Origin: Chloroflexota bacterium
Lineage (GTDB): Bacteria; Chloroflexota; Anaerolineae; Anaerolineales; Villigracilaceae
DNA: 37,045 nt
Assembly (NCBI GenBank): GCA_016866215.1
Contig: VGNE01000039.1
Span: forward strand, 1-37,045
Direction: 5' to 3'
Shown: one piece after another, positions 24,017 through 35,388 of the stretch
How the letters are laid out: each line of letters starts with the position of its first letter
How positions within the stretch are numbered: position 1 is the first letter of the stretch
Translations under genes and position numbers: made by a program
Notes under the pieces: model-generated
What the model was told of the DNA's origin: nothing
The model's input: only the letters and a program-made list of their open reading frames with translations
Databases searched by the model: none

Positions 24017-25420
24017 ATGTCCACCCTCCTCATAAAAAACGTACACATCGTTACCATGGATGACCATCAGCGGGAGATTCCCGAAGGTGGTCTTTTTATT
24101 CGGCGCGGACTCGTCGAAGAGGTCGCTCCCATGAGCGAACTTCCTGCCACCGCCGATGAAGTCCTTGATCTCAAAGGTCACATCGTATTGCCTGGTCTCG
24201 TCAATACTCACCATCATTTTTATCAAACCCTCACGCGCGCCGTGCCTGCCGCGCAGGATGCCAACCTCTTCAACTGGCTCAAAACTTTATATCCCATTTG
24301 GGCGCGCCTCACCCCCGACGATATTTTTATTTCGACTCAGACCGCACTGGCAGAGCTGGCCCTTTCGGGATGTACCACCGCAGCGGATCATCTCTACCTT
24401 TTTCCAAACGGATCAAAACTTGACGATGAAATTGCCGCGGCTTCCGAGATCGGTTTACGCCTGCAGGCATCGCGCGGCTCGATGAGCCTCGGCGAATCCA
24501 AAGGCGGACTCCCGCCCGATTCAGTTGTGGACACCGAAGAGAACATCCTCAAGGATTCACAGCGCCTCATAGAAAAATATCACGATGCAAAACCAGGCGC
24601 GATGACCCAGATCGTGCTCGCGCCATGTTCACCATTCAGCGTCACATCGGACTTAATGAAACAGTCCGCAAAACTGGCGCGTGAATATGGTGTGCATCTG
24701 CATACGCACCTTGCTGAAACCGAAGATGAAGAAAAATTCTGCATGCAGATGTTCGGTCATCGTCCCGTTGGATATATGCAGGAAGTTAACTGGGTGGGTG
24801 ATGATGTGTGGTTCGCGCACGCGGTTTGGGTCAATGACGAAGAGATCAAAGTCTTTGCCAAACACAACTGCGGTGTGGCGCACTGTCCTACATCCAATAT
24901 GCGACTCGCCTCAGGTATCGCGCCCATCAAAGAATATCGCGCCGCTGGTATGAACGTCGGCCTCGGCGTGGATGGCTCCGCTTCCAATGACGGCTCGCAT
25001 CTGCTGGCTGAAGTCCGCAATGCCATGCTGCTTTCACGTCTCAAAGAAGGCATCACAGGCTTCTCCCTCACCTCTAACCCCTCTCCCTCAGGGAGAGGGG
25101 AAGGGGTGAGGGAACTGATGACCGCGCGCGAAGCATTGTATCTCGGCACGCGTGGTGGGGCGGCGGTGTTGGGTAGAAGGGATATTGGAAGTTTGGAAAG
25201 TGGAAAATGCGCCGACTTCTTCGCTGTCAACTTAAATAAGCTTGGTTATGCAGGCATGCACGATCCTGTCTCTGCAATTGTTTTTGGTCAACCCGTAAAT
25301 GTAGATTACACTGTTGTCGGCGGAAAGTTCGTTGTCAATGAAGGTCAACTTGTGACGGTGGACCAGGGCAAGTTGATCGAAAAACATAACAAAGCCGCAA
25401 AAAGGCTATTAGCAGGATAG
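24017..25420 (+). CDS. 8-oxoguanine deaminase-like amidohydrolase
   Basis: This 467-residue metal-dependent hydrolase of the TRZ/ATZ type probably deaminates 8-oxoguanine (to urate) or a related purine. Metal and catalytic residues are visible: His65/His67 (NTHHHFYQTL), His229/His231 with Glu234 (HLHTHLAET), His268 (WFAHAVW) and Asp319 (GVDGSASNDG). The NTHHHFYQTLTRA and LYPIWARLT segments match 8-oxoguanine deaminases better than guanine deaminases. Residues about 350-365 (SLTSNPSPSGRGEGVR) are encoded by an inserted palindrome, probably in a surface loop. It is the first gene after the cluster promoter. If urate is the product, the enzyme feeds the later hydrolase and transcarbamylase genes. 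Confidence 0.85.
   Translation: MSTLLIKNVHIVTMDDHQREIPEGGLFIRRGLVEEVAPMSELPATADEVLDLKGHIVLPGLVNTHHHFYQTLTRAVPAAQDANLFNWLKTLYPIWARLTPDDIFISTQTALAELALSGCTTAADHLYLFPNGSKLDDEIAAASEIGLRLQASRGSMSLGESKGGLPPDSVVDTEENILKDSQRLIEKYHDAKPGAMTQIVLAPCSPFSVTSDLMKQSAKLAREYGVHLHTHLAETEDEEKFCMQMFGHRPVGYMQEVNWVGDDVWFAHAVWVNDEEIKVFAKHNCGVAHCPTSNMRLASGIAPIKEYRAAGMNVGLGVDGSASNDGSHLLAEVRNAMLLSRLKEGITGFSLTSNPSPSGRGEGVRELMTAREALYLGTRGGAAVLGRRDIGSLESGKCADFFAVNLNKLGYAGMHDPVSAIVFGQPVNVDYTVVGGKFVVNEGQLVTVDQGKLIEKHNKAAKRLLAG
25065..25112. repeat. Palindromic dispersed repeat, copy 2, inside the amidohydrolase gene
   Basis: The outer arms CCCTCACC (25065-25072) and GGTGAGGG (25105-25112) and the inner arms CCCCTCTCCC (25078-25087) and GGGAGAGGGG (25091-25100) form a nested palindrome. 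Its 48 bases equal exactly 16 codons, and the frame stays open. The core is shared with the copies at 3825 and 35309. Confidence 0.85.
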
Positions 25421-27408: not shown

Positions 27409-29199
27409 ATGTCATCTTCCACAAAACTTACCCAAGTCCTTGTTGATGTAGCCATGGGACGCGCTCATGCAGACCTTGTGATTCGCGGCGGCAAATGGGT
27501 CTGCGTGCAATCGGGTGAGATCATTCCTGATACCGACATTGCCATTGTGGCAGGCCGGATTGCCTATGTGGGACGGGATGCCAGTCATACAATTGGTAAA
27601 AAGACAAAAGTTATTGAAGCCAAAGGACGTTATCTCGTGCCTGGCTTGCTCGATGCACACATGCACGTTGAATCAGGCATGGTCACGGTCACAGAGTTTG
27701 TGCGCACGGTGGCTGTCCGCGGTACAACAGGTATGTTTATAGACCCACACGAGATGGCGAATATCTTCGGTCTCAAGGGGGTCAAGTTGATGGTGGATGA
27801 GGCCCAGAAGCAACCCATTCATGTCTGGGTGCAAATGCCTTCGTGTGTACCCTCGTCCCCCGGGTTTGAAACTCCCGGCTCTTCGATTGGGCAAAAGGAA
27901 GTCGTCGAAGCCATGCAATGGAAGGGCATCATCGGCCTCGGTGAGATGATGAACTTCCAGGCTGTAGTCATGGGCGATAAAAAGATGCTCGATGAAATGT
28001 CCGCGACCCATGCGGCGGGGAAGGTGATCGGCGGACATTACGCCTCGCCAGACCTCGGGCTGCCCTTCCACGGCTATGTGGCAGGCGGCGCGGAAGATGA
28101 CCACGAAGGCACACGCCTTGACGATGCAGTTGCGCGAGTGCGTCAGGGTATGAAAACCATGCTTCGGTATGGCTCAGCCTGGCATGATGTGGCAAATCAG
28201 GTCAAGGCCATTACAGAAATGAAATTGGATTCACGCCGCTTTATTTTATGCACAGATGATTCTCACGCAGAAACTTTAACGCAGGATGGTCACATGGATC
28301 GTGTGCTGCGCCATGCGATCTCGGAAGGCCTAACCCCGATGACCGCCATTCAAATGATGACGATCAATTCAGCCGAGCATTTTGGTCTCAGCAAGGAATT
28401 GGGTATGATCGCGCCCGGCCGCTGGGCGGATGTGGTGCTGGTGGAAGACTTGATGAACTTTAAGGCTGATATGGTCATTGCCAAAGGACAGGTCATTGCT
28501 GAGAAAGGCGAGTTGCAGATCAAACTGCCTTCTGTGAAATATCCCAAATGGGTGACGAAGTCCGTCCATTTGAAGAGACCTCTCAAGGCTGAGGATTTTG
28601 TCCTTCGGACAAGAGCAAGTGACGGGGCGGAGGTCGAAGCGCATGTCATCGGCGTGATCGAGAATCAAGCGCCGACTCGTCATCTCAGGATGAAAGTAAA
28701 AGCGGAAGGGAGTGAAGTCAAAGCAGATATTAAACGTGACCTCGCAAAGATTGCGCTGGTGGAGCGTCACCGCGCGAATGGCAAGGTCACAGTGGGATTG
28801 GTGAATGGTTTTGAATTTACAAGGAAATGTGCGATCGGCTCAACGGTGGCGCATGACAGCCATCACATGATTGTGGTGGGTACGGATGACGAGTGCATGG
28901 CGATTGCGGCGAATGAATTGGCGAAGTGCGGCGGCGGTCAGATCGTGGTGATGAATGGTAAAGTGATCGGACAGGTGGATTTGCAGATCGCGGGGTTGAT
29001 GTCAAATGAGCGCGCAGACATTGTGGCGAAAAAAACCGGAACTGTGCTGGAGGGGTTCAAGGCTTGCGGATGTGAATTGAACAACCCGAACATGCAATTG
29101 AGTTTGCTCGGTTTGGTGGTGATTCCCGAATTGCGGATATCTGATAAAGGTCTGGTGGATGTGGCACAGTTTGATTTTATTTCAGTGCTGGATGATTGA
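27409..29199 (+). CDS. ade: Adenine deaminase (Ade type)
   Basis: The 596-residue enzyme converts adenine to hypoxanthine and ammonia. It has the Ade-family layout: a beta-sandwich edge, an amidohydrolase barrel with PGLLDAHMHVESGMV (His84/His86, Glu88), IDPHEMANIFG, the SCVPSSPGFET segment and CTDDSHAE, and the family-specific C-terminal domain with GGGQIVVMNGKVIG. Length is typical. GGAG lies nine bases before the ATG. It is unlike AddA/Add adenosine deaminases. It lies 17 bases after the GT-C-like gene and six bases before the GntR gene, so it belongs to one transcript with the regulator. Confidence 0.95.
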   Translation: MSSSTKLTQVLVDVAMGRAHADLVIRGGKWVCVQSGEIIPDTDIAIVAGRIAYVGRDASHTIGKKTKVIEAKGRYLVPGLLDAHMHVESGMVTVTEFVRTVAVRGTTGMFIDPHEMANIFGLKGVKLMVDEAQKQPIHVWVQMPSCVPSSPGFETPGSSIGQKEVVEAMQWKGIIGLGEMMNFQAVVMGDKKMLDEMSATHAAGKVIGGHYASPDLGLPFHGYVAGGAEDDHEGTRLDDAVARVRQGMKTMLRYGSAWHDVANQVKAITEMKLDSRRFILCTDDSHAETLTQDGHMDRVLRHAISEGLTPMTAIQMMTINSAEHFGLSKELGMIAPGRWADVVLVEDLMNFKADMVIAKGQVIAEKGELQIKLPSVKYPKWVTKSVHLKRPLKAEDFVLRTRASDGAEVEAHVIGVIENQAPTRHLRMKVKAEGSEVKADIKRDLAKIALVERHRANGKVTVGLVNGFEFTRKCAIGSTVAHDSHHMIVVGTDDECMAIAANELAKCGGGQIVVMNGKVIGQVDLQIAGLMSNERADIVAKKTGTVLEGFKACGCELNNPNMQLSLLGLVVIPELRISDKGLVDVAQFDFISVLDD

Positions 29200-29205
29200 G
29201 GACCC

Positions 29206-29922
29206 ATGTCTAATTTTCCTTTTCAACGATTGCAGGTTGACCTGGCCGCTTTGATCTCCCGTTCACCAGCCGGCCAGCGGCTTCCCTCGGAACCTGACCT
29301 TGCAAAACAACTTGGCGTCTCTCGCGCCACTTTGCGCGAAGCCATGCGGTCGTTTGAAACGCAGGGGCTCATTCGCCGAAGGCAGGGTTCTGGAACTTTT
29401 GTCGTCGGCAAGACCCAGGTAATGGAGAGCGGCTTGGAAGTGCTTGAAAGCCTTGAATCGATTGCAAAGCGCCTCGGGCTGAAAGTCTCGGTTAGTGATT
29501 TAAGCATCGAAGCGACGGTTGCCGATGAAGAACTTGCGAAGATGCTGAACGTTCCATTGGGTGAAAACTTGACTCGTGTGCGCCGCGTGGTCCACACAGA
29601 TGAAAGACCTGTGGCATATCTTGTGGATATTTTACCTGCGACGTTTCTGGGCTCGAAGGATCTGCCGGCCGATTTTCACGGTTCTGTTCTGGACTTTTTA
29701 CTGGGTCGCGGCGACGCCTTGAAGACTTCCCGCGCGAATGTCAGTGCTATTGGTGCAACCCCCGAGGTGGCCAAAGCGCTTCAGATCCAGCGCGGAGATG
29801 TGTTGTTGCACTTCTATTCTCAGCTTTTCGATGAACGCGGTAAGGTTGTGGATTATTCTTTAAGCTATTCTATTCCCGGGTATTTTCATTTCCATATCGT
29901 GCGTCGTGTAAAAATTGTCTAG
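29206..29922 (+). CDS. GntR-family regulator with UTRA ligand-binding domain
   Basis: The 238-residue protein has a GntR winged helix in residues 8-68 (LPSEPDLAKQLGVSRATLRE, then IRRRQGSGTFV) and a C-terminal UTRA/HutC-type domain. That domain shows TRVRRVVHTDERPVAYLVDI and ends DYSLSYSIPGYFHFHIVRRV. It is the HutC-like class, distinct from the FCD-type regulator at 6961. Encoded six bases after ade, it most likely senses a purine breakdown product and controls the cluster through the palindrome at 23944-23958, which includes its own gene. Ligand unknown. Confidence 0.9.
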   Translation: MSNFPFQRLQVDLAALISRSPAGQRLPSEPDLAKQLGVSRATLREAMRSFETQGLIRRRQGSGTFVVGKTQVMESGLEVLESLESIAKRLGLKVSVSDLSIEATVADEELAKMLNVPLGENLTRVRRVVHTDERPVAYLVDILPATFLGSKDLPADFHGSVLDFLLGRGDALKTSRANVSAIGATPEVAKALQIQRGDVLLHFYSQLFDERGKVVDYSLSYSIPGYFHFHIVRRVKIV

Positions 29923-29976: not shown

Positions 29977-31197
29977 ATGACAAAAGTGAACGATATTAAG
30001 AAAAAAGTACAGGAAAATCGTGAGAATATTATCCAATTTTTGCGTGATATTGTTGCCATTCCCAGTATGGACGGTCAACTTAAAGATGTCGGTGAGCGTA
30101 TCCAGACTGAGATGCGGAAGCTCGGTTTCGACGAGGCGCGCTTCGACAAGATGGGCAACACCATCGGTCGCATCGGCAACGGGCCTAAGGTGATTATCTT
30201 CGACTCGCACATTGACACCGTGGGCGTCGGCGATCCCAGCGAATGGGAATGGGATCCGTTCGCGGGCAAGGTGGAGAACGGCATCCTGTATGCGCGCGGC
30301 GCGTGTGATGAAAAAGGCAGCACGCCCGGCATGGTGTATGGCCTCGCAATCGCCCGTGACCTGGGACTGCTCGATGGTTACACCGCCTACTACTTCGGCA
30401 ACATGGAAGAATGGTGCGATGGCATCGCGCCCAACACCTTCGTCGAGGCCGACCCCAAAGTGAAGCCTGATTTTGTCATCATCGGCGAGCCGACCAAGAT
30501 GCAGGTCTATCGCGGGCACAAGGGCCGCATCGAGTTGAAGATTACCGCCACTGGCCGGTCAGCGCACGCGGCGTCGCACTACCTCGGCGACAATGCCGTA
30601 TACAAGATGATGGCGACCATCACGCAAATCCGCGAGCTGGATCGTCGGATGCGCTTTGGGATGGGCTATCATCCGGTGCAGGGATTTCCCTCCATAGCGG
30701 TTACCGACGTCGAGGCGCGCACGGCTTCGCTCAACGCGGTGCCAGATCAGTTCACGATTTATATTGACCGTCGGATCACTTCGAACGAGCCGCGCGACGA
30801 GGTGATCGCGCAGATCAAGGGGCTGATCCCCGACTATCTGCAGGACGAAATCCACGTCGAAGAATTGTTCTACGACGCACCTTCCTACACGGGCTTTGTC
30901 TTTCCGGTGGCGAAGTTCTACCCGCCCTGGCTGCTGGATGACGCGCATCCGTTGACGCAGGCGGGGCAACGCACTATCGAGGCGCTGTGGGGCGAGAAGC
31001 GGATGCTGGGCACGTGGGACTTCTCGACCAACGGCACCTATTGGGCTGGCAAGGCTGGCATCCCCTCCATCGGTTTCGGTCCTGGCGACGAGAAAACCGC
31101 ACACATGCGCAACGAAAACGTGGCGCTCGACGACGTGGTACACGCAACGGAGTTTTACGCGTTGCTGCCGAAAGTGCTGAGGGAAAAGGTGAAGTAA
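29977..31197 (+). CDS. ygeY: YgeY-family M20 metallohydrolase
   Basis: The 406-residue enzyme belongs to the M20 peptidase/deacylase fold and to the YgeY group found next to selenium-dependent and urate-degrading gene sets. Zinc ligands and catalytic residues are visible: His78 and Asp80 (DSHIDTVGVGD), Asp111 (RGACDEKG) and Glu144/Glu145 (GNMEEWCDG). A dimerisation lid domain lies about residues 185-300. It presumably hydrolyses an amide in a purine-derived intermediate. Within roughly 30120-31190, third codon positions are strikingly G/C-rich compared with the neighbours, which suggests a separate origin for this gene. The ATG follows GAGG by seven bases. Confidence 0.9.
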   Translation: MTKVNDIKKKVQENRENIIQFLRDIVAIPSMDGQLKDVGERIQTEMRKLGFDEARFDKMGNTIGRIGNGPKVIIFDSHIDTVGVGDPSEWEWDPFAGKVENGILYARGACDEKGSTPGMVYGLAIARDLGLLDGYTAYYFGNMEEWCDGIAPNTFVEADPKVKPDFVIIGEPTKMQVYRGHKGRIELKITATGRSAHAASHYLGDNAVYKMMATITQIRELDRRMRFGMGYHPVQGFPSIAVTDVEARTASLNAVPDQFTIYIDRRITSNEPRDEVIAQIKGLIPDYLQDEIHVEELFYDAPSYTGFVFPVAKFYPPWLLDDAHPLTQAGQRTIEALWGEKRMLGTWDFSTNGTYWAGKAGIPSIGFGPGDEKTAHMRNENVALDDVVHATEFYALLPKVLREKVK

Positions 31198-31329: not shown

Positions 31330-32283
31330 ATGCGTAGTTTTGCTGGTCGTGATATCCTTTCGCTCAAGGAATTCGAGCGGAACGAATTCTTCCATGTGTT
31401 TGATGTGGCTCAGAAAATGGAACCCATCGCACGTTCCAGGAAGAACGTGGATATGCTCAGGGAAAAGACTCTTGTGACGGCCTTTTACCAGCCTTCCACG
31501 CGCACGCGCTTGGCCCATGAAGCCGCCATGCACCGCCTCGGCGGCCATGTTACGGGTTTCTCCGATGCAAAGATGACCCGCGCCGGAGACTTCTATCAGG
31601 AGTCCATCAAGGACACGGTCAAGATGCTGGAGTTTTATGGCGATGTGATCGTGATGCGCCACTTTCAGCAGGGGGCGCCGCATGAAGCCGCGAAGTGGGC
31701 AAGTATTCCCATTATCAATGGCGGCGATGGCTGGGGCGAGCACCCGACGCAAATTCTCACTGACTTGTACACGGTCTTGCGTGAGAAGGGGCGGATTGAC
31801 GGTCTCAAGTGGCTGGCGGTCGGCGATATGCGCATGCGAACCATGCACTCCCTCGGTTATGCTTTGAGTCAATTCGACTGCCCGATCACTTTCGTCGCCC
31901 CGCCCGATATGGGACTGACCGATGAATTCAAAAAGGAACTCAAGCAATACAGCGTCAACTTCAAGGAAGCCGATCACGTTGAAAAAGCCATCGGTGAAGC
32001 GGATGTGATTTTGGTCGAGCCAGTCGTCCAGCCGGATTACACCAAGTCCCGCGATGAGCGCACAGGCGAACTCGACCTGACGCCCGCGAATTACAAGATC
32101 ACGCGCGAGTTGCTGGAGAAGAAAGCCAAATCAGACGCAATCCTGCTCCATTCCCTGCCCCGCATGGATGAAATTCCTCTTGATGTGGATATCACCAAAT
32201 GGTCGCGCTACTGGCAGGAAGCCTTCAACGGCGTGGTGATGAGGATGACACTGCTGGCGCTGGTGCTGGGCGCGATGGAATAG
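31330..32283 (+). CDS. Aspartate-carbamoyltransferase-like enzyme, probably other substrate
   Basis: This 317-residue transcarbamylase resembles PyrB. The carbamoyl phosphate site is intact: STRTR (56-60), Arg110 (VMRH), HPTQ (138-141), Arg170 (RMRTMHS) and HSLPRMDE (274-281). Judged by eye against the E. coli catalytic chain, the 80s-loop Lys84 corresponds to Tyr89 in GDFYQESIKDT. The Arg229/Gln231 aspartate-binding segment is replaced by EPVVQPDYTKSRDE. Aspartate is thus an unlikely substrate. No PyrI or other pyrimidine gene is nearby; ygeY, a second transcarbamylase and carbamate kinase are. I infer a catabolic transcarbamylase that yields carbamoyl phosphate. GGAGG precedes the ATG. Confidence 0.82.
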   Translation: MRSFAGRDILSLKEFERNEFFHVFDVAQKMEPIARSRKNVDMLREKTLVTAFYQPSTRTRLAHEAAMHRLGGHVTGFSDAKMTRAGDFYQESIKDTVKMLEFYGDVIVMRHFQQGAPHEAAKWASIPIINGGDGWGEHPTQILTDLYTVLREKGRIDGLKWLAVGDMRMRTMHSLGYALSQFDCPITFVAPPDMGLTDEFKKELKQYSVNFKEADHVEKAIGEADVILVEPVVQPDYTKSRDERTGELDLTPANYKITRELLEKKAKSDAILLHSLPRMDEIPLDVDITKWSRYWQEAFNGVVMRMTLLALVLGAME

Positions 32284-32373: not shown

Positions 32374-32637
32374 ATGGCATTGGATAAGAAGGCCGTGAAG
32401 GAATGGGCGGCTGAGTACAAACTGATTAATGAGATGGAGGATGCGGAACTGCGCGCGCGCTTGGATACGGAAACCATCGAGGAGAGCGTTCGAAGGTACT
32501 TCGTCTGGAACAGACTCGCGCTTGCTTTTGCTCGCAGGCCTGATATGCCGGAAGAGTTACAGGAATCTCAAGCCGATTATTATTTGTCCTTGATTGCGAA
32601 ATGGGAGACGTTGTCTCGGAGAATAAAGAATGTTTGA
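32374..32637 (+). CDS. Small helical protein paired with a nucleotidyltransferase
   Basis: This 87-residue charged protein is predicted to be all helical and starts MALDKKAVKEWAAEYKLIN. It has no signal peptide, membrane segment or cysteine. Its stop overlaps the next ATG by eight bases, so the two are translated together. The arrangement (small helical protein first, nucleotidyltransferase-fold protein second) resembles toxin-antitoxin pairs, but residues that would define an antitoxin family are not recognised. It interrupts the catabolic gene order between two transcarbamylase genes. Confidence 0.7.
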   Translation: MALDKKAVKEWAAEYKLINEMEDAELRARLDTETIEESVRRYFVWNRLALAFARRPDMPEELQESQADYYLSLIAKWETLSRRIKNV

Positions 32638-33187
32638 CAACCCTCAAGTATTCCAGGCGGTTCTCCACTTTCTGGATGAGCATAAAATTCCGTACATGGT
32701 CATTGGCGGTCTTGCCGTTTCGATTTGGGGCGAGGGGCGCGCCACGCATGACGCTGATTTCAAGGTTGTGATTGATACGCCTTTGGAAGAATTCAGACAC
32801 TTGGTATTAAGTCGGTTTCCTGAACGACCGACAAAGATTCCCGCGCATAAAAAAAGTCAGTATGTCCTTCAAGTTTGGGCGGCTCCTGATGTGGCAGCGG
32901 ATCTTTTAGTGTGTATCTTTGATTACGAAAAGGAAGCCGTTCGTCGGGCAGTTGCAATCGAGATCATGGGAGTTTCCACGCGAGTCTGTACGCCGGAAGA
33001 TTTTATTATTCATAAGGCCATTGCCAATCGCGGCAAGGATTGGCTCGATATTCCCCAAGTCTTGTATCGCCAACGCGGCAAACTCGACCTCAAGTACATC
33101 CGTCACTGGCTGACTCAATTCGCCGAGGCGCTCGAAATGCCCGAACTGCTCACGCGGTTCGAGGAACTTTACGAATCTAATAAGTAG
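32630..33187 (+). CDS. Nucleotidyltransferase-fold protein (AbiEii/MNT-like)
   Basis: The 185-residue protein has the minimal nucleotidyltransferase signature: MVIGGLAVSIWGEGRATHDADF (residues 23-44). The GG of the nucleotide loop is Gly26-Gly27 and the metal-binding pair is Asp41/Asp43. The rest (CTPEDFIIHKAIANRGKDWLD) fits AbiEii- or DUF6036-like proteins. It could nucleotidylate RNA or a partner protein, as in type IV-like toxin systems or MNT antitoxins. GGAG lies before the ATG and the gene overlaps its small partner by eight bases. No metabolic link to purines is visible. Confidence 0.82.
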   Translation: MFDNPQVFQAVLHFLDEHKIPYMVIGGLAVSIWGEGRATHDADFKVVIDTPLEEFRHLVLSRFPERPTKIPAHKKSQYVLQVWAAPDVAADLLVCIFDYEKEAVRRAVAIEIMGVSTRVCTPEDFIIHKAIANRGKDWLDIPQVLYRQRGKLDLKYIRHWLTQFAEALEMPELLTRFEELYESNK

Positions 33188-33281: not shown

Positions 33282-34271
33282 ATGCAAACAAATTTTCGTG
33301 GACGTGATTTCATCGGCGATCTTGACTTTACCAAAGAGGAAGTCGAAACTGTTTTGGAAGTGGCCTGGGACTTAAAGCGCAAACGCGCTCTCGGCGAGCC
33401 GCATCCCTACCTGTGCGACAAGGTGCTGGCGATGCTGTTCTTCTTCTCATCCACGCGCACGCGCGGATCATTCGAAGCGGGCATGGCGCAGCTTGGCGGG
33501 CATGGCGCTTTCATTGACAGCAACACAACCCAAATCTCGCACGGTGATACACCTGTTGAAATTGGTGAGATCTTTGGGCGCTACTTCGACGGCATTGCCA
33601 TTCGCCATTGCGATTTTGGTGACGGCAATAAATACTTGAACGCGGTTGCGAAGAATTCACGTGCGCCGGTATTGAACATGCAATGCGATATTTATCACCC
33701 CTTCCAATGCCTGGCTGATCTAATGACCATCATGGAAAAGAAAGGCAAAGATTTGCGCAAGAAGAAGATCGTCGTTTCATGGGCATATGCCGCTTCTTAT
33801 CTCAAACCGATCTCTGTGCCTCAGTCTTTGATTTTGCAGATGCCGCGCTTTGGCATGGATGTGACGCTGGCGTACCCGCCTGAATTTTCCCTGATGCCTG
33901 ATATCGTCAAACAGGCTAAGGAACAAGCCAAGATCGCTGGAACTAGGTTTGAGATCATTGACACCAAGGACGGCATGACCGAAGCCTGCAAGGATGCTGA
34001 TGTGATCTACGCTAAATCCTGGGGTCCGCTTTTGACTACAAATGATAATGTCGAAGGTAAGAAACTACAGGATATGTACAAGAACTGGATCATGGACGAT
34101 GCCAAGTTAAAGGTCGCCCACAAGGATGCCATTTACATGCACCCCTTGCCTGCTGACCGAGACGTAGAAGTCACCAGCAGTGTGTTGGATGGCCCTCAAT
34201 CTGTAGTCTTTGATGAAGCCGAGAATCGTCTGCACGCGCAGAAAGCCGTGATGGCGTTGACGATGGCGTAG
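33282..34271 (+). CDS. ygeW: Knotted carbamoyltransferase, YgeW-like
   Basis: This 329-residue enzyme belongs to the knotted transcarbamylases (N-acetyl- and N-succinylornithine transcarbamylases, YgeW). The carbamoyl phosphate motif is STRTR (57-61), followed by HPFQCLADL (His139) and MHPLPADRD (286-293). The proline-rich knot loop SWAYAASYLKPISVPQS (166-182) closely resembles that of YgeW. By alignment from memory with Xanthomonas AOTCase, the specificity residue Glu92 corresponds to Pro91 (HGDTPVEI), the residue type described for succinylornithine transcarbamylase. It is shorter than E. coli YgeW, lacking the long C-terminal inserts. Carbamate kinase follows 11 bases later, favouring carbamoyl phosphate production. 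Confidence 0.85.
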   Translation: MQTNFRGRDFIGDLDFTKEEVETVLEVAWDLKRKRALGEPHPYLCDKVLAMLFFFSSTRTRGSFEAGMAQLGGHGAFIDSNTTQISHGDTPVEIGEIFGRYFDGIAIRHCDFGDGNKYLNAVAKNSRAPVLNMQCDIYHPFQCLADLMTIMEKKGKDLRKKKIVVSWAYAASYLKPISVPQSLILQMPRFGMDVTLAYPPEFSLMPDIVKQAKEQAKIAGTRFEIIDTKDGMTEACKDADVIYAKSWGPLLTTNDNVEGKKLQDMYKNWIMDDAKLKVAHKDAIYMHPLPADRDVEVTSSVLDGPQSVVFDEAENRLHAQKAVMALTMA

Positions 34272-34282
34272 TAGGAGACCCC

Positions 34283-35236
34283 ATGACAAATAAACTAGCA
34301 GTCATCGCAATTGGCGGCAATTCACTGATCAAAGATGAGAAACAAAAATCTGTCGAAGATCAATATCAGGCCGCCAAAGAGACCACTTTCCACATTGCAG
34401 ACATGATCGAGTCAGGCTGGGATGTGGCAATTGGTCACGGGAACGGGCCGCAGGTTGGCTTTATTCTGAGACGTTCGGAAATCGCGGCTAAAGTTGAGGG
34501 CATGCACGAAGTCCCGCTGGATGTCTGCGGCGCGGATAGTCAGGGCGCCATTGGTTATGCCTTGCAGCAGACTCTGCAGAACGAGCTTTATCGCCGCGGC
34601 ATCAAGAAGCCTGTTGCCACCGTTGTTACCCAGGTGCTGGTGGATAAAAATGACGCTGCTTTTAAAAGCCCATCCAAGCCGATCGGTTCGTTCATGGATG
34701 AGGCCGAAGCCAAACGCCGTGAAAAAGACATGGGTTGGAGCGTGGTCGAGGATGCGGGCCGCGGCTGGCGCCGCGTGGTCGCTTCCCCTCTCCCAAAGGA
34801 AGTTGTGGAGCTTGAGTCAGTAGAAGCCCTCATTAAAGCGGGAGTGGTTGTAATCACAGTTGGCGGCGGTGGCATCCCTGTCATTGATGTCAGCGATCAT
34901 GAATACAAAGGTGTGGCGGCCGTGATCGATAAGGACTTTGCCTCCAGTTTGCTGGCGCGCCTCATTAAAGCTGACTTGTTCCTGATCTCCACGGCTGTCG
35001 AAAAAGTCGCGATCCACTTCGGCAAACCCGAACAGAAATGGCTCGATAAAATGACCGTCGCCGAAGCCAAAGCTTATCTGGCTGAGGGCATTCATTTTGC
35101 CAAAGGTTCAATGGCTCCGAAGATCGAAGCCGCGATTTGGTATTTGGAGAATGGCGGTAAGGAAGCGCTCATAACTAATCCTGAAAACATCGGGCGCGCA
35201 CTCAAAGGCGAAACAGGTACGCGGATAGTTAAATAG
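34283..35236 (+). CDS. arcC: Carbamate kinase
   Basis: The 317-residue amino-acid-kinase-fold enzyme transfers phosphate from carbamoyl phosphate to ADP, giving ATP, CO2 and ammonia. Signatures include AIGGNSLI (8-15), GHGNGPQVG (about 51-59), VTVGGGGIPV and the late DLFLISTAVEKV and EAAIWYLENGGKEALIT segments. Length is typical. No arginine deiminase gene is adjacent, and the two transcarbamylases upstream would supply its substrate. In E. coli the purine-linked homologue is YqeA. A GTAGGAGACCCC ribosome-binding region precedes the ATG. It is the last recognisable gene of the cluster. Confidence 0.96.
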   Translation: MTNKLAVIAIGGNSLIKDEKQKSVEDQYQAAKETTFHIADMIESGWDVAIGHGNGPQVGFILRRSEIAAKVEGMHEVPLDVCGADSQGAIGYALQQTLQNELYRRGIKKPVATVVTQVLVDKNDAAFKSPSKPIGSFMDEAEAKRREKDMGWSVVEDAGRGWRRVVASPLPKEVVELESVEALIKAGVVVITVGGGGIPVIDVSDHEYKGVAAVIDKDFASSLLARLIKADLFLISTAVEKVAIHFGKPEQKWLDKMTVAEAKAYLAEGIHFAKGSMAPKIEAAIWYLENGGKEALITNPENIGRALKGETGTRIVK

Positions 35237-35308: not shown

Positions 35309-35388
35309 CCCCTCACCCCGTTTGACGTGATTGTTCACAGGGACGACTTCCCCCTCTCCCCTTGGGAGAGGGCAGGGTGAGGGTTTTT
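35309..35388 (+). terminator. Palindromic repeat copy 3, acting as likely cluster terminator
   Basis: The outer arms CCCCTCACCC (from 35309) and GGGTGAGGG (35375-35383) and the inner arms CCCTCTCCC (35352-35360) and GGGAGAGGG (35364-35372) are present. A TTTTT run follows at 35384-35388. Between the arms lies an extra ~30-base insert (35320-35350). The T-run makes it a plausible terminator for the 11 kb cluster, while its sequence makes it a copy of the repeat at 3825 and 25065. Confidence 0.75.

Follow-up and report, generated by a model that had tools for sequence, protein, structure and literature searches.

The window, a stretch of 37,045 nucleotides from contig VGNE01000039.1 of a Chloroflexota bacterium (GCA_016866215.1), carries a run of genes on the forward strand in the order 8-oxoguanine deaminase family amidohydrolase (24017–25420; NF006055, 670.5 bits against a cut-off of 532), adenine deaminase (27409–29199; TIGR01178, 501.9 against 472.5), GntR-family regulator (29206–29922; matches to the GntR family, none above an NCBIfam cut-off), YgeY family hydrolase of the M20 type (29977–31197; TIGR03526, 454.2 against 321.5), a PyrB-like protein of 317 aa with an ATG start (31330–32283), a second transcarbamylase of 329 aa (TC2, 33282–34271), and carbamate kinase (34283–35236; TIGR00746, 380.9 against 358.25). 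The PyrB-like protein is the subject of this study; it is of the pseudo-ATCase kind and most likely a catabolic transcarbamylase. A preliminary description of this DNA had named ygeY and a carbamate kinase gene and reported the absence of pyrimidine genes; the former are borne out by scores above the NCBIfam cut-offs, and no pyrimidine gene was found near the PyrB-like gene among the subset of window ORFs scanned. Only YgeY, TC2, carbamate kinase, and the purine deaminases adjoin it in the window, and the contig ends soon after; HyuA, SsnA, and XDH are encoded on other contigs of the genome.

Two other features of the window were recorded. Between the PyrB-like gene and TC2, positions 32374–33187 encode a DUF2204/DUF6036 nucleotidyltransferase and a small protein, which the window shares with just a few relatives (L045, L070, and L079 have both; L039 and L056 have the nucleotidyltransferase alone; in L159 it is beside ygeY), and the segment resembles a mobile insertion. 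The 8-oxoguanine deaminase gene contains, at about 25065–25112, an in-frame palindromic repeat (core 25079–25099) encoding NPSPSGRGEG, the RGEG signature of which is missing from 49 of 49 orthologues checked; a similar palindrome is found at 35352–35372.

Both transcarbamylase domains are present in the PyrB-like protein (Pfam). The NCBIfam model TIGR00670 ("aspartate carbamoyltransferase") gives 250.2 bits against a cut-off of 236.95, so a pipeline would apply that label, as had been anticipated, though PRK00856 is not passed (223.6 against 263); the two YgeW profiles score 32.7 against 500 and 35.3 against 453 bits, both below cut-off. Four transcarbamylases were found in the window genome, which is 97% complete: the PyrB-like protein, TC2, a normal PyrB on contig 64 (SVSKGES, TRVQKER, HPLP), and an apparent ornithine transcarbamylase on contig 82. 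When a tree of 61 rows was built with the genome's own PyrB included, as the preliminary description had proposed, the 19 rows of the PyrB-like family grouped as a single clade (100/100), separate from that of the genome's own PyrB and joined to the ATCase half of the tree, at no firmly supported position, by a long stem (1.5 changes per column). Solved ATCase structures match the AlphaFold2 model (pLDDT 85.1, pTM 0.89) best, with 1ml4 (Z 37.3, rmsd 2.5 over 301 residues) level with others, and Foldseek also places ATCases closest.

The PyrB-like gene is under strong purifying selection. Its dN/dS against relatives has a median of 0.038 and a maximum of 0.070 over 48 pairs; of the best 80 of 534 candidate loci, 18 were excluded because their lengths differed and 14 because dS was saturated. 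Compared across 16 genomes, the PyrB-like protein is more similar than PyrB in 115 of 120 pairs (means of 90.8% and 86.3%).

Active-site residues were compared in a MAFFT alignment of 106 distinct proteins of the family, including that of the window, with 27 distinct Chloroflexota PyrB proteins, including the genome's own, and E. coli PyrB (L135); 120 of the 317 positions are invariant across the family. In ATCase, R167 binds the α-carboxylate and R229/Q231 bind the rest of aspartate, while S80 and K84 come from the adjacent subunit. The carbamoyl phosphate residues are kept in all 106 members (S52–T55 as S56–T59, R105 as R110, H134 as H138, Q137 as Q141), which agrees with the intact motifs described before. 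The K84 column holds Y89, the residue named in the preliminary description, in 106/106, a pairing also given by the HMMER alignment to 1ml4, and the 80s loop reads TRAGDFYQES, without any lysine, so that the loss of K84 does not depend on a single alignment column. In the altered Arg229/Gln231 segment, which reads EPVVQPDYTKSRDE from residue 230, P231 occupies the R229 column in 106/106 and T238 the Q231 column in 104/106, or V233 in 105/106 when the segment is read without a gap; the HMMER alignment pairs R229-x-Q231 with P-V-V. A check for Lys and Arg at the aspartate site thus returned Y89 and P231 throughout. The P266 column holds S275 in 106/106. S80 falls on R84 by MAFFT, and a loop indel leaves the invariant T83 as a possible stand-in, making loss of Ser80 uncertain. 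R167, by contrast with K84, R229, and Q231, is retained as R170 in all 106 members, and the claim that the aspartate-binding residues had been lost therefore holds for those three and not for R167. Because R167 and the carbamoyl phosphate residues remain, the alignment suggests that an α-carboxylate is still bound. The second-substrate residues of transcarbamylases are tabulated in Table 1 of PMC4581275.

The proposal of a new substrate specificity rather than de novo pyrimidine synthesis is supported by the genuine PyrB on another contig, the separate clade, and the purine-catabolism neighbors. That the PyrB-like protein is not an ATCase we regard as close to certain, and its membership of purine catabolism as highly probable.

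TC2, which the preliminary description does not mention, is the key to the function of the PyrB-like protein. By its place in the tree it is a short YgeW-type transcarbamylase (329 aa against 396 aa in YgeW). TC2 clusters with E. coli YgeW, leaving ornithine and putrescine transcarbamylases outside (100/97); the YgeW branch is long (2.62) and carries a warning of long-branch meeting, so this grouping is held with caution. An assignment as YgeW proper was rejected, as TC2 reaches neither of the NCBIfam cut-offs for YgeW. In structure, the TC2 model most resembles the knotted acetylornithine transcarbamylases (Z 36.3 and rmsd 2.2 over 311 residues), with Z 34.0 to ornithine transcarbamylases and Z 32.7 and 32.1 to YgeW structures. 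Read by eye, TC2 has the proline-rich, knot-type loop, a feature tied to the transcarbamylase knot in PMC4581275.

A search for relatives in the GTDB collection (84,980 genomes) retrieved 534 candidate stretches, which may include ordinary PyrB, and the best 80 of 534 were analyzed. In these 80 the PyrB-like protein is 86–97% identical to that of the window, and all are Chloroflexota by title except one binned as Lentisphaerae. That contig (L047, MAG34) has the Chloroflexota gene order and a PyrB-like protein 89% identical, and is probably mis-binned. Among those of the best 80 of 534 loci in which the flank concerned is long enough to judge, TC2 lies downstream in 73/73 and carbamate kinase in 59/60; upstream lie GntR (71/78), adenine deaminase (43/56), oxoguanine deaminase (39/48), and, with its start within 1.6 kb, YgeY (30/74). 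A transporter cluster follows downstream in many loci, its substrate-binding protein family being present in 45 of the best 80 of 534; the transporter is BMP-type by Pfam in L182 and by eye elsewhere. An XDH-like gene and a threonine-synthase-like PLP enzyme stand within about 22 kb downstream in G015, G022, G025, and G031. By record titles, the Chloroflexota that bear the gene come from groundwater, sediment, fen, and hot spring. L062, from a Thermoflexus sp. MAG, encodes a PyrB-like protein 88% identical to that of the window; adenine and adenosine are consumed by T. hugenholtzii (PMC8129789).

Among 61 related genomes, TC2 occurs in 51 and the PyrB-like gene in 24 (cut by a contig end in G055); all 24 carriers have TC2, and none of the 10 genomes that lack TC2 has the PyrB-like gene. 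TC2 stands without it in 27 of the 51. Because the whole operon (oxoguanine deaminase, adenine deaminase, GntR, YgeY, TC2, and carbamate kinase) occurs in the same genus without the PyrB-like gene, this gene is an optional addition to the operon or has been lost from it. YgeY (E ≤ 1e-80) was detected in 17 of the 24 carriers, the other seven being G016 (in which the ygeY match is split over two segments), G040, G048, G053, G055, G056, and G060, and in 25 of the 27 TC2 genomes without the PyrB-like gene; in the remaining two, G019 and G023, neither protein was found and TC2 is near a contig end or incomplete. Over all 47 carriers, a number that excludes G113, a carrier with a partial match, YgeY co-occurs with the PyrB-like protein in 23, the window genome among them, or 24 with the split ygeY of G016. 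The contrast between 23/47 and 25/27 gives a Fisher p of 1.2e-4 with kinship ignored, and within the 61-genome set alone (17/24 against 25/27) the difference is not significant (p = 0.066). Strict exclusion of YgeY by the PyrB-like protein was considered and rejected, as it fails phylogenetic control: a pair test on 56 TC2 genomes, of which 55 were scored (G016 was unscored, and G019 and G023 were not in the set), yielded 3 independent pairs and a median sign-test p of 1. Nor can simple replacement explain the 23 carriers in which YgeY coexists.

YgeY itself comes in two grades, one of about 1185–1188 bp and 436–454 bits at 9 places, 8 of them in carriers, and one of about 1167–1179 bp and 459–492 bits in carriers and non-carriers. 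After ygeY in L181 (G059:C58, 2731–3036) lies a fragment with one stop codon and 52–54% identity to the C-terminal third of the PyrB-like protein, perhaps a decayed relative.

A search of 400 genomes sampled across the phylum found 31 matches to the PyrB-like protein at E ≤ 1e-64; G248 and G111 (40–42% identity) group with PyrB and not with the PyrB-like family. Eleven genomes of distant Chloroflexota (codes f44 and f32; 67–71% identity) were examined in context, the gene lying less than 1 kb from a contig end in 3 of the 11 stretches. XDH-like genes (by tblastn to E. coli XdhD) are present in 7/11 of these stretches, one of the PLP enzyme families in 6/11, SsnA-like genes in 4/11, YgfK-like genes in 2/11, and, in 1/11, a DHO_dh protein that carries a 4Fe-4S domain, the architecture given for UacX. 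YgeY was found in 0/11 of the stretches and 0/11 of the genomes, 9 of which score above cut-off for the Se-dependent XDH model. The XDH of L182 and L184 passes TIGR03311 (HMM). TIGR03315 matches the YgfK of L182 in part (280 bits), and the SsnA proteins of L182 (a cut ORF) and L190 (433 against 444) fall below their cut-offs. As a side observation, L182, L183, L184, and L190 combine XDH- and SsnA-like genes with YgfK-like (L182, L184) or UacX-like (L190) ones, unlike a statement in PMC12507026 that Chloroflexota lack "these enzymes" (YgfK/UacX and, by its methods text, perhaps XdhD) beside SsnA.

G048 links the PyrB-like protein, TC2, carbamate kinase, the transporter, PLP enzymes, and HyuA, the last 13 kb downstream in the same direction, with no YgeY. 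The D-hydantoinase/HyuA family is present in 45 of the 47 carriers (thresholds of 1e-100 and 1e-80) and over its cut-off in 43. XDH (E ≤ 1e-150), detected in 35/47 carriers and 13/28 non-carriers, is for that reason frequent but neither universal nor specific. SsnA is over cut-off in 44 of the 61 relatives, carriers and non-carriers alike, and in L142 and L143 sits among genes read by eye as F420-cofactor genes. E. coli-type YgeX exceeded its cut-off in only 1 of the 27 genomes searched, a non-carrier; its role may fall to the threonine-synthase-like PLP enzyme near the cluster.

A 2025 report described the enzymes of the reductive urate pathway (PMC12507026). In E. coli, urate is converted via yanthine and ureidomethyl-hydantoin to 2,3-diureidopropionate (DUPA), on which YgeW with phosphate, YgeY, and YgeX act in turn to give pyruvate; YgeW phosphorolyses DUPA, making carbamoyl phosphate, and YgeY then cleaves albizziin, the carbamoyl group being wasted (PMC12507026). 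Which ureido group of DUPA goes first is disputed (PMC12990295).

From the observed active site, selection, linkage, purine context, and lack of YgeY in about half of the carriers searched, we infer the direction, substrate, step order, and ATP yield of the PyrB-like enzyme as follows. HyuA would make DUPA in a reductive (anaerobic) urate/purine pathway, and the PyrB-like enzyme would run phosphorolytically, converting a ureido amino acid and phosphate to carbamoyl phosphate and an amine. Since, where YgeY is missing, it is the only other candidate ureido-cleaving enzyme found in the cluster, TC2 and the PyrB-like enzyme are proposed to divide the two ureido groups of DUPA between them, TC2 taking one and the PyrB-like enzyme the other, to leave 2,3-diaminopropionate and two carbamoyl phosphates. 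Carbamate kinase forms ATP from carbamoyl phosphate and ADP; it would pull both phosphorolyses, the two carbamoyl phosphates yielding two ATP. The PyrB-like enzyme would then carry out phosphorolytically the step that E. coli YgeY carries out hydrolytically. ATCase acts on the α-amino group, and because of this preference for the α nitrogen and the retention of R167, removal of the 2-ureido group of DUPA is predicted. That would match the sequence of cuts ascribed to Liu et al. by Percudani (PMC12990295).

The principal reading, a phosphorolytic transcarbamylase of the reductive urate pathway that works with TC2 and carbamate kinase at the YgeY step, is assigned a probability of roughly 0.58. 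We lean, by a similar degree, toward the narrower claim that the PyrB-like enzyme takes one DUPA ureido group in place of, or beside, YgeY. Where the two coexist, YgeY might take the other stereoisomer or serve when phosphate or ADP is short, which is speculation. The wider picture, in which Chloroflexota run a fully phosphorolytic reductive urate pathway with an ATCase-like and a YgeW-like transcarbamylase and one carbamate kinase, the 2-ureido group being removed by the ATCase-like one, is advanced tentatively, at somewhat below even odds. Among the matches listed in literature searches on a second transcarbamylase in this pathway, on YgeW in Chloroflexi, and on relatives of ureidoglycine transcarbamylase (UGTCase), the arrangement with TC2, a role in DUPA breakdown, and replacement of YgeY are unreported, and the matches listed hold no enzyme assay of the clade.

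Other functions were weighed against this proposal. The PyrB-like protein could be a catabolic transcarbamylase for another ureido acid, such as N-carbamoyl-β-alanine, formed when pyrimidines are degraded, or a carbamoyl amino acid derived from hydantoins, with carbamate kinase shared with TC2. The D-hydantoinase/dihydropyrimidinase family, present in 45/47 carriers, fits such a role, and a different substrate would account for the YgeY kept in 23/47; the cluster partners, however, are adenine and oxoguanine deaminases, joined by XDH, SsnA, and YgfK in the distant group, and the invariant R167, the α-carboxylate ligand, would not be needed for a β-ureido acid. We consider this unlikely, though it retains roughly one chance in five. 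A function as ureidoglycine transcarbamylase (allantoate + Pi → ureidoglycine + carbamoyl phosphate), like that of Rxyl_2847, would match in broad kind (pseudo-ATCase), purine context, and nearby carbamate kinase (PMC4016543). Allantoinase, however, is over the TIGR03178 cut-off in 0 of the 47 carriers searched, which makes allantoate an unlikely substrate, and the weaker allantoinase matches of 43/47 carriers are at least partly D-hydantoinase places. The group-1 motifs HPLA and AIA/AIS/SIA are absent, HSLP (274) and PVV standing instead, and Table 1 of PMC4581275, partly predicted, gives UGTCase a Ser and a Lys at the S80 and K84 places; the 80s loop of the present family has no Lys. Ureidoglycine, one of the substrates put forward in the preliminary description, is accordingly disfavored, and we judge the UGTCase role improbable.

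Two further readings were considered. Were the PyrB-like protein a non-catalytic partner or regulator of TC2, the strict linkage to TC2 would be explained, yet the carbamoyl phosphate residues would hardly be expected to be invariant, and TC2 does without it in 27/51 TC2 genomes of the relatives set; little credence is given to this. A normal ATCase whose active site happened to be unusual, with carbamoyl aspartate as its product, would pass TIGR00670 and have ATCases as its closest folds, as observed, but the same genome holds a genuine PyrB, K84, R229, and Q231 are gone in 106/106 members, no pyr gene was seen nearby, and TC2 adjoins in 73/73 assessable loci (best 80 of 534); we give this next to no weight.

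On the principal reading, the PyrB-like enzyme would probably allow the cell to gain energy from a fragment split off by hydrolysis in other bacteria, and an energy-saving purine fermentation in Chloroflexota is suggested. Removal of the 2-ureido group would bear on the dispute over which cut comes first, and an ATCase relative that makes one cut would allow this question (PMC12990295) to be tested directly. The case also illustrates that a PyrB annotation above a curated cut-off can be wrong across a whole clade.

The PyrB-like protein is of the pseudo-ATCase kind (Barba 2013) and lies outside the one characterized group; it fits each of the published groups 1–3 only in part. Like the UGTCase Rxyl_2847 of Rubrobacter xylanophilus (PMC4016543), it is ATCase-like, lacks the R229/Q231 pair, and belongs to a purine cluster with carbamate kinase; it differs in its occurrence in Chloroflexota, its pairing with TC2, and, in the distant group, its proximity to SsnA, YgfK, and XDH. 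From group 1 it departs by the absence of HPLA and AIA/AIS/SIA, the lost 80s-loop lysine, and the want of an allantoinase over cut-off. The HSLP variant it carries is reported for groups 2 and 3 (PMC4016543). With group 2 it shares H[ST]LP, met by HSLP, but not GX[SC]; a ygeW homologue adjoins group 2 just as TC2 adjoins the present protein in 73/73 assessable loci (best 80 of 534). Group 3 is defined by HSLP and VXP. HSLP is present in all but one member of our family (F for L), whereas its VQP is off the aligned VXP site and has A for P in 10/106, and the group-3 neighbors asparaginase and Na+ symporter were not among the neighbors and recurrent ORF clusters looked at, a subset of ORFs. One Nocardioides pseudo-ATCase is described as having a ygeW homologue next to it, along with xdh and hyuA genes, so the pairing of a pseudo-ATCase with a YgeW-type protein has precedent (PMC4016543). 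Plasmid records searched for other pseudo-ATCase groups gave 531 matches, all below 60% identity, with no recognizable pseudo-ATCase among the inspected minority: a Tsukamurella match proved to be a pyr-operon PyrB, and Variovorax and Acetoanaerobium matches carry HPLP.

ATCase (PyrB) and the PyrB-like protein have in common the fold, the carbamoyl phosphate site, and R167, and differ in the replacement of K84, R229, Q231, and P266, in genomic context, and in clade. The PyrB-like family is a Chloroflexota clade with the ATCase fold and is most likely catabolic. E. coli YgeW phosphorolyses a DUPA ureido group and feeds carbamate kinase (PMC12507026), as is proposed for the PyrB-like enzyme, but is knotted (PMC4581275) and sits on the other side of the tree; its counterpart is TC2. 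With E. coli YgeY (M20), the PyrB-like enzyme would share the step, removal of the second ureido group, although the families are unrelated and hydrolysis by YgeY wastes the carbamoyl group. A precedent for exchanging hydrolysis and phosphorolysis at a ureido group is provided by UacY of C. difficile (PMC12507026): there, hydrolysis replaces YgeW, whereas in these Chloroflexota phosphorolysis would replace YgeY.
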